Shown here one piece after another: positions 7,596-13,890 of a DNA stretch of 64,000 bases (its first letter is position 1; every line of letters begins with the position of its first letter). The stretch comes from an uncultured Nitrospirota bacterium (GTDB lineage Bacteria; Nitrospirota; Nitrospiria; Nitrospirales; UBA8639), in contig CAKZPV010000045.1 of the NCBI GenBank assembly GCA_937139405.1, positions 1 through 64,000 on the forward strand. Direction: 5' to 3'. The notes under the pieces are model-generated. The model was given only the letters and a program-made list of their open reading frames with translations, searched no databases and was not told the origin of the DNA. The translations under genes and the position numbers were made by a program.

Positions 7596-8171
7596 ATGGC
7601 TCGCCAACATATTTTCATCCTTACGGTCTCTATTATCCTATCCGTTATTCTTGGGATCGGGATCGGTATGAAACTCTCACCGGGGCAAGGACTTCCCATT
7701 CGAGTCGTCGCTGATTACCTCCATGCTGTTCTACAAGCTGACCGCACCTTCTACACTCAACATGTGGTGGAACGAATGGAAGCCATGTTGATAGTGAATG
7801 CCACGGAAAAGTGGCGAGAAGAACGTACATTACCCCTTCCTGCACAGTTCTTTAAAGAATCCTCACGAGGACTACAGGTTCGTGGAAGGCCATTTCGATA
7901 CCGACTCGTGAGTTTGTGGCCGATTAAAGAAGAAAACTCGCCAGAGTCGGAAAATGAACGGTTAGCACTTGAGAAAGTCATGACCTACGGAGAGGTAGTG
8001 GAACAGGAAATTGAATTAGAGCAACGGAGGTATTATCAGGCCATTTTTCCGGATCGCGCTGTAAGCCGAGCCTGCATCAATTGCCATAACGCCCATGAAC
8101 GAAGCCCCAAACGCGACTTCAAACTCAACGACATTATGGGTGGATTAGAGATATTGATTCCTCTGGAATAA
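7596..8171 (+). CDS. Membrane-anchored DUF3365 (Tll0287-like) c-type haem protein
   Basis: 191 residues. An N-terminal membrane anchor (residues 5-25) is followed by a periplasmic Tll0287-like domain, often a PAS-like sensor fold. A single haem c site, CINCH, lies at C160, C163 and H164, followed by NAHERSPKRDFKLNDIMGG, the family's characteristic ending. Proteins of this type act as redox or gas sensors or small electron carriers in the periplasm. No kinase or cyclase domain is fused, so any signalling would need a partner. AGGAAGG lies about 12 nt before ATG 7596. Family fairly sure; role unknown. Confidence 0.82.
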   Translation: MARQHIFILTVSIILSVILGIGIGMKLSPGQGLPIRVVADYLHAVLQADRTFYTQHVVERMEAMLIVNATEKWREERTLPLPAQFFKESSRGLQVRGRPFRYRLVSLWPIKEENSPESENERLALEKVMTYGEVVEQEIELEQRRYYQAIFPDRAVSRACINCHNAHERSPKRDFKLNDIMGGLEILIPLE

Positions 8172-8381
8172 TATTGACCAACTTCAGGAAGCTTAGCCTG
8201 TCTATTTCTCCTTTTCTAAAAGAATCTAATCCTCAGAAAACTATCCCCCTTTTCAAATAATGCCTTTTGGGGCAACCCTGAAAATTGTGAATGCTTGAGT
8301 AAGCTGGAATTTGATCGGTAGGTTTGATGATATAACTCGGAAAGATCCTGGGCGGGAGTACTCCCAACACTAACAGTTCAA

Positions 8382-9593
8382 TCAAGCGGAAACTGTGGAA
8401 TGAGCTTTCGGTAGCGTGAAGTGAAAGGAGGTGCCTTGCCCAACCACAGAGTCCACCGATAACCGACCCCCATGTTTTTCAACAAGGTCTTTACATAGTA
8501 GCAGTCCTAACCCCGTACCTTTCTCGCCGGAAGTCCCATCTGTTGATCTTCGAGCCTTCAACTCAAATAAGCCAGCAACCATTTCAGCAGGAACACCAAC
8601 TCCCGTATCAATGACTGATATTTGAATCATTTCTCCTTGATCGACCACTTGGACTGTTACGCTTCCTTCGGCAGGAGTAAACTTAACGGCGTTGCTGATG
8701 AGATTCTGAAATATAGAATGGAGCATCGTCGAATCCGCAAACACTTCAGCGTCTGGATGCGGTTCATATACCAGATCAACCATTTTTTGTGTCGTATTCC
8801 CCTTGAAGAGGACCTGAACATTGGCCATCACAGTATCGATAGCAATATTGGCTGGCTGATATTCCAAAACTCCTAATTCAAACCGAGTGCTTTGCAAGAG
8901 ATTATCAATAAGATGTATGAATTGTTCGGCCGAAGTCAGAACCGTTTGGGAACAATCTTGCATTTCATCCTTCGTCAAGGTTTCTCCTTCTTCCACCAAA
9001 ACTCTGGAACATGCCAAGATCCCAGTAAATGGCGAGCGAAGGTCGTGGGATAAAAGGTGGAATAATTTGTTTTTACTTTCTAGAGCCTGTTGTAGCTCTT
9101 TGCTCAGACGACGAAGTTCCAATTGAGCCACGACCTGTCGAGCCAATGTTTGTAAGGCTGTTATTTGTTCAGGAGATAAAGTTCGTGGCTCACGATCAAT
9201 AGCACATAATGTCCCTATGGCCAATCCTTCTGGGGTGATAAGGGGAGCACCGGCATAAAACCGAATGTGCGGATCTCCGGTTACTAAAGGATTATCTATA
9301 AATCGCGGATCGGTGAAAGTATCAGACACCACAAACACGTCAGATTGATGAATGGCATGCGCACAAAACGCAATATCACGAGAAGTTTCCGGCGCCGGAC
9401 ATCCTACTTGAGCTTTAAACCATTGGCGATTGGGATCCACCAAACTAATAAGGGCAATAGGGGTTTGACAAATATAGGAGGCCAACTTCACAAAATCGTC
9501 ATAGACTGCTTCAGCCTCTGTGTCTAAAACATCGTATTGCAAAAGCGCTTGAATACGCGCCTCTTCATTTTTAGGGATTGCCGCAATCTGCAT
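8382..9593 (-). CDS. GAF-domain sensor histidine kinase
   Basis: 403 residues, no membrane segment, so cytoplasmic. The GAF domain spans about 20-165 and has the pattern DVLDTEAEAVYDDFVKLAS and APLITPEGLAIGTLC seen in GAF kinases that start by classifying the input with a short helical lead. A short coiled linker precedes HisKA with phospho-acceptor H183 (LLSHDLRSPF). The HATPase part has the N box FQNLISNAVKF (N301), G1 DTGVGV (329-334) and G2 GTGLGL (359-364). All catalytic motifs look intact. No cognate regulator is adjacent; the receiver-only proteins at 55-56 kb are possible but unproven partners. The 210-base gap after its stop (8172-8381) shows nothing clear. Confidence 0.92.
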   Translation of the reverse strand: MQIAAIPKNEEARIQALLQYDVLDTEAEAVYDDFVKLASYICQTPIALISLVDPNRQWFKAQVGCPAPETSRDIAFCAHAIHQSDVFVVSDTFTDPRFIDNPLVTGDPHIRFYAGAPLITPEGLAIGTLCAIDREPRTLSPEQITALQTLARQVVAQLELRRLSKELQQALESKNKLFHLLSHDLRSPFTGILACSRVLVEEGETLTKDEMQDCSQTVLTSAEQFIHLIDNLLQSTRFELGVLEYQPANIAIDTVMANVQVLFKGNTTQKMVDLVYEPHPDAEVFADSTMLHSIFQNLISNAVKFTPAEGSVTVQVVDQGEMIQISVIDTGVGVPAEMVAGLFELKARRSTDGTSGEKGTGLGLLLCKDLVEKHGGRLSVDSVVGQGTSFHFTLPKAHSTVSA

Positions 9594-9937
9594 ATAAAAT
9601 CCTTTTAGGCCTGGCGAAACCAGAGGAGGGACCTCGTTGCACTCCAGAGAAAGTTCGAAGATGTTTCTACGAGAAGAAAAAAGTTGTCTTCAATACGTTC
9701 GGAACATTGCTCTCTCACCTTGAAATAAATAATTCCAACCGTCTAGCTCGTAAAAAACGGTGTGTCTCAAAATTTATGACTAAGATTCCCGTTGCGTAAC
9801 AGGGAAGAGAATACCTTAAACACCATAGGGTCTTGTGAAACCCATTAAGAGCCGAGCAAGGAAAACCGACAAGAATAGCAATGATCAGCAAAGTTTAGTC
9901 GGCTAGGCAAAGTAGTCAGAAGAGAAGTCAACCTTCC
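9594..9937. other. Intergenic, no feature recognised
   Basis: This 344-base stretch separates the divergently transcribed histidine kinase and methyltransferase-like genes, so it should contain promoters for both. I find no convincing -35/-10 pair, sigma-54 element, RNA gene or repeat in it. Confidence 0.5.
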
Positions 9938-10741
9938 ATGAAAAAAAATCTCACGATCATACAACCACAAATTACACTTAGCGATCGATTACGATCAGGC
10001 TATCACCGATTCTGGTACGAAGCCTCACAGGCCTTGCGTTGGTCACGAGGCACCTATCGAGAAACGCCCCTTGGGACACATTCTAATCTTTCGTCCTCAC
10101 AAGGCGATCGCATTGAAGAAATGAACACTATCTATGGAATGCGTTTTGAATTGCGATACCCTCCAGAAACAAGCCTCTTCAATTATGGATACTTAGATTT
10201 ACTCGATCGTGCTCGACAAAACCTGAATTGGACCGCCCCTCAGCAACAACATGTCTGTGACGTCGGCAGCGCAAATTTTTCCTATGCAGCGGCACTCCAG
10301 GCTTTTTTTCAACCTTCGCAATTAGTAGGAACAGAGGTGGACGGACATCGATTGTATTGTAACGGTCGAAGCCGTATTGATTATGCACATGGCCATATTC
10401 AAGACCTTCCACATACGAACTATGTAGTTACGGATTACCGTCAGCACAATCAACCTGCCGACATCATCACCGCCTGGTATCCATTTGTGACACCCAAACC
10501 GCTCCTTGCCTGGCGTTTGCCGTTGAGCTTATTCGACCCGGCCTCCCTGTTTGCCCAAATCGCAAACAACTTGGTGATCGGCGGTACGTTTGTCATGGTC
10601 AACCATAGCCCCATCGAAGCCACTGTCGCCAAAAATATTGCTGAATCCACAGGCCTTGTCTGTCGAGGTCAATATGTACACGACGCTCCTCTCCGCCCTC
10701 GCACACAACCTTCCGTTCTCACCCTTTGGCATCATTCCTAA
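9938..10741 (+). CDS. Putative class I methyltransferase-like protein
   Basis: 267 residues, soluble. Residues 105-120 read HVCDVGSANFSYAAAL, a passable motif I of class I SAM methyltransferases, followed by an acidic GTEVDGHRL that could close the second strand, and NLVIGGTFVMVNHSP near 210 like the late strand of the fold. The classical GxGxG is lacking, so SAM binding is uncertain. Substrate unknown. It stands alone, without a clear Shine-Dalgarno sequence. Call rests on fold-like motifs only. Confidence 0.6.
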   Translation: MKKNLTIIQPQITLSDRLRSGYHRFWYEASQALRWSRGTYRETPLGTHSNLSSSQGDRIEEMNTIYGMRFELRYPPETSLFNYGYLDLLDRARQNLNWTAPQQQHVCDVGSANFSYAAALQAFFQPSQLVGTEVDGHRLYCNGRSRIDYAHGHIQDLPHTNYVVTDYRQHNQPADIITAWYPFVTPKPLLAWRLPLSLFDPASLFAQIANNLVIGGTFVMVNHSPIEATVAKNIAESTGLVCRGQYVHDAPLRPRTQPSVLTLWHHS

Positions 10742-11154: not shown

Positions 11155-13890
11155 ATGAAGCTGCAAACCAAACTGATAATCGGGTCTATTCTCCTTGCCA
11201 CCGTACCCATTGGAATCGCCGGCTCGATTATCACCTGGCAAGCTAACCAAGAAGCAAAGGTGGCACTTGAAGAACAGGCCAAGAATCAGCTGACCTCAAT
11301 CAGGGAGATGAAGAAAAATCAAATCGAGGCCTACTTTCAAACGATTCGGGATCAAGTTCTCACATTTTCCAACGATCGAATGATTATTGAAGCCATGATA
11401 GGCTTCAAACCAGCATTTAACAATTTTCGAAAAGAAATCCAACCATCCGATCAGGATATCAGTTCTTGGAAGTCGAGTTTAGCCACGTATTATCGGAAAG
11501 ATTTCACAGAAGAATATGTTCGTCGCAATCCTCATCAGGATTCTCATGCCCTTTCTTATTTCCCGCATTTGGATCATGACTCCATCGCACTTCAATACCA
11601 ATATATTACGGCCAATCCTCATCCATTAGGCAGTAAAGATGAGTTATCTTTTTCGCAAGACGGCACAAGTTACAGCCAACTCCATGACCGGTATCACCCC
11701 CACATTCGGGACTTCCTGAAAAAATTTGGCTATTACGACATTTTCTTAGTGGATCCTGATTCTGGGGACATCGTGTACTCGGTCTTCAAAGAATTAGATT
11801 ATTCTACTTCATTGATTGATGGCCCTTACGCGGATACGGGAATCGGGAAGGTTTTTCAAGAGGCGAATGCCTCAGACAATTCTCAAGCTGTGACGCTCAA
11901 GGACTTTACACCCTACCCCCCGTCCTACGAAGACCCTGCGTCCTTTATCGCATCTCCTATCTTCGATGGGTCAACTAAAGTTGGGGTGCTGATTTTCCAA
12001 ATGCCAATTGACCGGATTAACGACATCATGACGAATCAAGAAAATTGGAAACAGGTCGGTCTAGGGGATTCTGGAGAAACCTATCTCATCGGCCCAGACT
12101 ATACGATGCGAAATCAAAGCCGATTTCTTCTGGAAGACAGAGCCAATTATTTGGCTGCTATCAAGGCTGTTGGTCTTCCTTCGCAAGTCATTGATCTGAT
12201 CTCAGCAAAAAACACATCCATAGGTCTCCAATCCGTTCAAACCCAAGGGACCAAGGCCGCCTTATCAGGAAAAACAGATTTCGCCATCTTTCCGGATTAT
12301 CGCCATGTGTCCGTTCTCTCTGCCTATGCCCCATTGAATATCTCAGGTTTGCATTGGGTGATTATGAGCGAAATTGACGAAGCAGAAGCCTTCTTACCGA
12401 CCGATACTCTTAATCGCAAAATTCTTGAATCGACTCTCTGGATCATAGGAATCATGTTCATTTTTTCTGTAGGCTTTGGATGGCTATTTGCTGCAAGAGC
12501 GACAAGTCCTATTCAATCCCTCCAAAAGACCATTGAATCAATTGGTGATAGCTCGCAGTCGGATAGAAGGATCGAAATCAACACCCAGGATGAAGTGGGA
12601 GCACTGGCCCGGTCCTATAACGTGCTACTTGACCGACTGCAAATAGTAAACAGACAAATGGAAAAAGCCAGTCAGAATGTGTCTAACTTAGCGAGTAAGG
12701 TAATGAGTGTTGTGGCTCCGGTGAGTAACAGTATTCACCGTCAAGCTCAAGACGCGAGGACAGTGGCTACCGCAACGGCGGAAATGTCTGACATCGTCCA
12801 TACTGTTGCTCAAAACGCACAGCACGCAGCGATATTGACTAAAGATGCTGATACCGAAGCCACGAAAGTGGATGAAGTGGTGAGCAACACAAAAACCTGC
12901 ATGTCTCGCCTAGCAGAGATCGTAGGAAACTCACAGCGGAAAGTAGTATCCCTGGCCAAGCACTCCGACCAAATTGGAGAAGTCACAAAAATAATTGACG
13001 ACATTGCGGAACAGACCAATCTCTTAGCCTTAAATGCGGCCATCGAAGCGGCACGTGCAGGGGAACAAGGCCGAGGATTCGCTGTCGTTGCGAACGAAGT
13101 TCGAAAACTTGCTGAACGAACGACCAAGTCCACGAAAGAAATCACGGAAATGATTCAGGCCATGCAAGAAGAAACCCGATCGGCTGTTGATGTAATGGAA
13201 AAAGGGACACATGAGGCCACCAACGCGATGACCCTTGCACACCAATCGAGCGAAAGCTTGAACCGAATCATCCAATCTGTCAATCAAGTCACAGATGAAA
13301 TGTCTCAAATTGCAGCAGCAACGGAAGAGCAATCAGGCACAACTGAAAAAATCAAAGGTAATATTGAAGAGGTGGCAACTGTTAGTCAACAAAACGAAAT
13401 TTCTCTCGGGACTGTGTCACGAGCCACTATGCGATTATTGGGATATGCCGCCGCTGCCCAATGGGTAGCAGCGCAAGAAGCTGGCACCCTCACTACTGAA
13501 CCAGAATTGAGTTTTGCTCGAGTGGGTTTGGATCCTGAATTTCTGGAGAAATTTTATGAAACATTCTTATTGAGTCATGTATCTATTTCGAACCTGTTAA
13601 GTCCCCATGATCGTGAAAAGCGCAAGGCACTAATGCTCACGGAAATAGTCGCGTTACTTCAATTTTGGCGAAGAGAAGAAAATGGAAAGTTAGTTTTGAA
13701 CTTTATCGGCTCAAACCACGCATGGCTTGGGATGGAACCCTCTATGTATCAATATTGGTCAGAAAGCCTAATCAACACGCTCAAACAATTTGATCCAAAA
13801 TGGTCTTCCGAATTAGAGCAAATCTGGACTCACTCCCTAAGAAGTGGCCTTGAATACCTTTCGACTCAGACGATGGCCATGAAAGCTTAA
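11155..13890 (+). CDS. Chemoreceptor (MCP) with periplasmic dCache-like sensor and C-terminal globin-like domain
   Basis: 911 residues. Membrane helix 1 at about 7-27, a large periplasmic Cache-type sensor to about 420, helix 2 near 425-447, HAMP about 448-500, then the cytoplasmic signalling coil whose hairpin tip, [19 protein letters not shown], starts near residue 620. After the coil, residues ~785-905 look like a haem globin: [14 protein letters not shown], ...[37 protein letters not shown], and [19 protein letters not shown]855 is placed where the proximal haem His of bacterial globins lies. Known globin-coupled receptors carry the globin at the N-terminus, so this order is unusual. No NWETF-like tail. 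Likely senses a small periplasmic ligand and possibly O2 or NO in the cytoplasm. AGGAGA precedes the ATG. Confidence 0.9.

Follow-up and report, generated by a model that had tools for sequence, protein, structure and literature searches.

Globin-coupled chemoreceptors, as described in the literature, carry their globin at the N-terminus (PMC13401364, PMC1457004). The window analysed here, a stretch of 64,000 nucleotides from an uncultured Nitrospirota bacterium (assembly GCA_937139405.1, contig CAKZPV010000045.1), contains a chemoreceptor gene for which an initial annotation had proposed the reverse arrangement, with a globin-like domain placed after the signalling coil. This locus thus raises the questions of whether the C-terminal segment of the receptor is a globin, how it came to be attached there and what such a domain could contribute to signalling.

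Results

The coordinates of the open reading frame and the length of its product, 911 amino acids, were as initially annotated (Table 1). From the N- to the C-terminus the protein consists of a transmembrane (TM) segment, a dCache-like sensor, a second TM segment, a HAMP domain and the hairpin of a methyl-accepting chemotaxis protein (MCP), followed by about 130 further residues. The hairpin harbours the conserved tip motif of MCPs, and the HAMP domain together with two TM segments assigns the receptor to their transmembrane class. The external sensor appears to be Cache-like, on weaker evidence than the globin: the Pfam dCache_1 score is 39 bits, below the cut-off of 45, and reaches 53.9 bits, above it, in a homologue that is 49% identical over the sensor (L034). 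A structure model of the sensor was too low in confidence for use (pLDDT 41), and a sensor profile searched against the PDB gave one weak, uninformative match only. Sensor homologues were present in 22 of 396 genomes of the phylum. A promoter and terminator scan yielded no signal exceeding those of shuffled sequences.

Table 1. Features of the receptor gene and its upstream neighbour in the window.
Feature	Position	Strand	Basis or remark
Upstream gene, methyltransferase-like by inspection	9938..10741	+	no Pfam match
Entire receptor gene (transmembrane methyl-accepting chemotaxis receptor of 911 aa, globin at the C-terminus)	11155..13890	+	stop codon 13888-13890
TM1, residues ~7-29	11173..11241	+	hydropathy run 3-30
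Periplasmic dCache-like sensor, residues ~30-422	11242..12420	+	Pfam dCache_1 stretch 192-403
TM2, residues ~423-449	12421..12501	+	hydropathy
HAMP domain, residues 445-496	12487..12642	+	Pfam HAMP 42.7 bits
MCP signalling hairpin, MCPsignal residues 563-743, tip E637	12841..13383	+	Pfam 160 bits (cut-off 34.6 bits)
Connector (conserved), residues 744-780: helix of the returning coil, then short turn into globin helix A	13384..13494	+	
Globin domain, residues ~782-908	13498..13878	+	sequence, profile and structure matches
Tyr801, helix position B10	13555..13557	+	invariant in 24/24 aligned globins
Leu815 at CD1	13597..13599	+	Phe in 21/21 non-fused relatives
Arg823 (E7) through Met827 (E11)	13621..13635	+	relatives: Gln at E7 in 21/21, Leu/Ile at E11
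His855, F8, proximal haem ligand position	13717..13719	+	invariant in 24/24 aligned globins

Sequence and model comparisons confirm, well beyond chance, that the C-terminal segment is a globin. When residues 772-911 alone were searched against all PDB sequences by phmmer, 1tu9, the crystallised single-domain globin PA3967 of P. aeruginosa, was retrieved (E 3e-6), and H855 aligned to its proximal His as the initial annotation had predicted. A profile built solely from three fused copies (see below) found the same structure with E 2.9e-13, and comparison of their profile with that of 15 stand-alone globins gave E 2e-28. The AlphaFold2 model of this part, for which the input was an alignment of 24 globins with true globins among them, had a pLDDT of 93.5, a pTM of 0.88 and its helices in globin order. 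In the fold comparison, which had been named beforehand as a check, Foldseek and VIA-align both gave 1tu9 as the best match (Z 18.4; rmsd 2.1 across 129 residues), and neuroglobin, myoglobin and flavohaemoglobin matched at Z of about 15, which places the domain in the 3/3 globin fold. The late-helix pattern noted earlier is likewise present as E888-x-x-W891. The closest relatives are F/M-type, namely 1tu9 and flavohaemoglobin-like globins, and no match of the fused domain to Protoglobin was obtained. The Pfam Globin score, 12.5 bits, falls short of the cut-off of 22, and standard annotation therefore misses the domain; a PF00042 search of 49 genomes of the family reported none of the three fused copies.

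Invariance across all 24 aligned globins is limited to three columns: Y801 (B10), H855 (F8), which supplies the proximal His of the globin superfamily, and the helix-H Trp W891. Among the three fused copies by themselves 50 of 124 columns are invariant, and conservation of the Tyr and His in these copies alone is therefore weak evidence. The distal side of the pocket is different, in that the three fused copies agree on Leu-CD1, Arg-E7 and Met-E11, residues that occur at these positions in none of the 21 relatives. Phe at CD1 is nearly universal among globins, yet it is not a strict requirement; Leu815 takes its place here, with Leu in the fused copies throughout. The E7 and CD1 positions are our own assignment, counted from the flavohaemoglobin pattern, and agree with the ungapped alignment of the same stretch to 1tu9. 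From this distribution the distal pocket looks rebuilt rather than decayed.

The C-terminal globin arrangement is retained in three species. A full-length orthologue of 911 amino acids, globin included, is encoded with 74% identity in a Nitrospirota bacterium (G323, JAOUQB010000019.1), and Nitrospirales bacterium RBC_NOB5 (G302, JALDRK010000034.1) has an orthologue in two frames of 73% and 62% identity, because the frame is interrupted close to residue 525 in that metagenome-derived assembly. The ratios of dN/dS between the window receptor and G323 were 0.09 for the sensor, 0.10 for the MCP part, 0.08 for the connector and 0.09 for the globin, rough values since dS is high and near saturation. 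By these ratios the globin is under purifying selection, as is the rest of the receptor, and the connector (79% identity with G323) is conserved as strongly as the sensor. The fused receptor is absent from most genomes of the genus. Globin-less sensor homologues occur elsewhere in the phylum and also within the genus (G320); those examined over their full length end where the MCP or another output domain closes.

Scans of contigs relied on short peptide patterns and were non-exhaustive; within that scope the single sequence gave no match and the three-copy profile recovered the two known orthologues only. No further C-terminal globin fusions were found in the phylum by a search that covered about 300 genomes of this one phylum closely and the rest via short peptide patterns. 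A 510-aa frame with a globin in G011 was considered as a fusion and rejected, as it consists of two overlapping frames, and a plasmid search returned a single weak match, to an annotated globin. The methyltransferase-like gene upstream lies beside all three fused receptors; it is probably transcribed separately from the receptor because a gap of 413 bp divides the two. Farther upstream of the receptor region, positions 7596-8171 of the window encode a Tll0287-like protein that carries the haem c motif CxxCH.

In a maximum-likelihood tree of 26 globins the three fused domains form one clade (support 99/99) that sorts with the stand-alone PA3967-like globins; away from it, the N-terminal globins of Nitrospirota receptors form a separate clade (100/99) together with the globin of a globin-receiver protein. 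The stem of the fused clade is long, 1.17 changes per column, and since there are a few other long branches in the tree its exact placement is unsure. In G323 a stand-alone globin is present alongside the fused copy. The tree topology thus indicates that the fused globins arose by a fusion separate from that of the N-terminal-globin receptors of the phylum. A PA3967-like single-domain globin of the flavohaemoglobin (F/M) lineage would have been joined to the C-terminus of a dCache-MCP in the Nitrospirales, most simply once, and been retained since.

Globins were met in other contexts in these genomes as well. In the globin-receiver protein (L136:937-1836, G251), of about 300 amino acids, a flavohaemoglobin-type globin at the N-terminus precedes a response-regulator receiver domain at the C-terminus. 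Frames of comparable length that include a globin occur in about eight more genomes of the genus; the domain content was scanned in L136 only. In G323 a globin with in-frame stops (L134:1720-2103, C180) lies directly 5' of a periplasmic-sensor MCP gene, by che genes, and looks like a broken N-terminal-globin receptor. The own genome of the window receptor encodes, next to a receiver-domain gene, a divergent globin-like protein of 211 amino acids with a likely C-terminal membrane helix and no Pfam match (L135:979-1614, C1).

MCP signalling domains are antiparallel hairpins, and this bears on where the globin is situated. The initial annotation had the external sensor and the globin feeding the coil from opposite ends, which does not hold for a coil that doubles back on itself. 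When the HAMP end of the coil (496-503) is mirrored about the tip at E637, the returning helix is expected to end at 771-778, and in the model a helix spans 761-776, followed by globin helix A at 782-790. The hairpin thus returns to its membrane-proximal base and the globin is positioned there, beside HAMP. The spacing of coil to globin is about five residues, and such a short gap with a conserved connector suits direct mechanical coupling.

By inspection, the genome contains two che clusters, two CheA-like genes and flagellar genes. Unlike the window receptor, some other receptors have a flexible tail at the C-terminus that closes with an acidic-aromatic sequence, DDDFFEEF or KKDEYEEF. Two receptors in the che cluster of the own genome (L054:5549-7759 and 7854-9659, C33) have the tail SSNGHxSSKGDDDFFEEF in common, to which adaptation enzymes might dock.

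Discussion

HemAT, a soluble protein, resembles the window receptor in coupling a globin to an MCP signalling domain. The differences lie in the C-terminal position of the globin (~782-908 of 911), its F/M lineage and the transmembrane nature of the receptor. HemAT has an N-terminal globin of the protoglobin (S) family (PMC13401364, PMC6194562), and by position and lineage the window receptor is outside the HemAT family. The contrast with HemAT-type receptors drawn in the initial annotation stands as to the N-terminal globin there; the combination of a globin with an external sensor, on the other hand, is not unique. Four Nitrospirota MCPs (L022, L023, L029 and L143) likewise have a flavohaemoglobin-type globin and MCP output, in their case with the globin at the N-terminus and in the separate clade, and two of them, L023 and L143, also possess a periplasmic sensor. 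These two are receptors of about 1090 amino acids (L143:1375-4641; L023 in three copies, G009:C5) in the order N-terminal globin, TM, periplasmic helical sensor, TM, HAMP, PAS domains and MCP; the sensor of L023 is 4HB_MCP_1, and L143 ends in the KKDEYEEF tail. MCPs with PAS plus Bac_globin have been reported, cytosolic in Corallococcus, in a text from which the domain order is absent, and one of them is from Nitrospira defluvii (PMC6194562); the latter may be of the N-terminal type seen in L022.

No MCP with a C-terminal globin was found in the literature covered, mostly papers available without subscription. The nearest known layout is that of DcrH from Desulfovibrio vulgaris, in which a periplasmic domain, HAMP and MCP are followed by an O2-binding haemerythrin at the cytoplasmic C-terminus (PMC9388753, PMC13401364). 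Haemerythrin is a non-haem di-iron protein unlike the globin of the window receptor, and the likeness drawn here is one of layout; by analogy the window receptor may work like DcrH. Tlp1 and Aer of Azospirillum brasilense also have a cytoplasmic ligand domain at the receptor C-terminus, in their case a PilZ domain that binds c-di-GMP and not haem (PMC13401364). PA3967/1tu9 and the stand-alone Nitrospirota globins are closest to the fused domain in sequence and fold, and differ from it in being single-domain proteins with Phe-CD1, Gln-E7 and Leu/Ile-E11.

Three other readings of the locus have to be weighed. The receptor could be an artefact, two adjacent genes merged by a sequencing or assembly error, as the genome is a draft of 51 contigs and the copy in G302 is broken. 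That break is far from the junction. The reading frame runs through the junction in three independent assemblies, and the sequence is conserved there at 61-79% identity; we consider an artefact hardly conceivable and rejected it as in practice refuted by the orthologues. A weightier objection, still rather unlikely in our judgement, is that the fold was kept and haem lost, leaving a docking or dimerisation module or a binder of some other small molecule. A haem-free signalling globin is known in RsbR of B. subtilis (PMC4476040), and the globin of HemAT binds ethanol without use of its haem (PMC7542364). Both CD1 Phe and E7 Gln are replaced in all three fused copies, which lowers the certainty of haem binding, and their loss, along with the long stem of the fused clade, fits a changed or lost ligand. 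RsbR, however, has lost its F8 His (PMC4476040), whereas F8 His and B10 Tyr persist here as in every aligned globin, and the new pocket residues are the same across the three copies, with no drift.

Haem could also be bound with its sixth site taken by a protein side chain, Met827 at E11 for example, so that redox state or haem itself would be read and not a gas. We regard this as improbable. Against it stands the usual role of a B10 Tyr, the stabilisation of O2 at the haem. In its favour, Met-E11 and Arg-E7 are fixed in all three fused copies, and a protein-ligated sixth site, Lys-His, is documented for the bacterial signalling globin HGbRL (PMC4476040). The fused domain is likely to bind haem and to sense a gas.

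The reading that we favour, with some reservation, is that of a dCache-MCP in which a C-terminal PA3967-like globin would act as second input, most likely via haem-bound gas or haem redox state. A periplasmic ligand would be read by the dCache domain, and the globin, on its short conserved junction at the HAMP-proximal base of the hairpin, would add the cytoplasmic input. Haem would be held by His855, and O2, NO or the haem redox state would be sensed in the rebuilt distal pocket formed by Tyr-B10, Leu-CD1, Arg-E7 and Met-E11. The ligand state may then shift the packing of the returning helix near HAMP and the adaptation region and thereby bias CheA, in whichever direction the response would run. 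The odds appear even that these receptors constitute a separate kind of chemoreceptor with a C-terminal globin and a distinct distal pocket, where the signal of a dCache ligand outside the cell and that of haem-bound gas or redox state inside it are combined at the HAMP-proximal base of one MCP.

With a globin and a periplasmic sensor in one receptor already known in the phylum (L023 and L143), the new features are the C-terminal position, the lineage of the globin and its distal pocket. Since the fused copies score below the Pfam globin cut-off, similar receptors may escape annotation surveys. From a separate C-terminal fusion of a different globin lineage, it seems that haem domains can be accommodated at the base of the MCP hairpin, as haemerythrin is in DcrH, and the receptor offers a test case for how an outside ligand and the O2, NO or redox state of the cytoplasm may be weighed against each other in the Nitrospirales.
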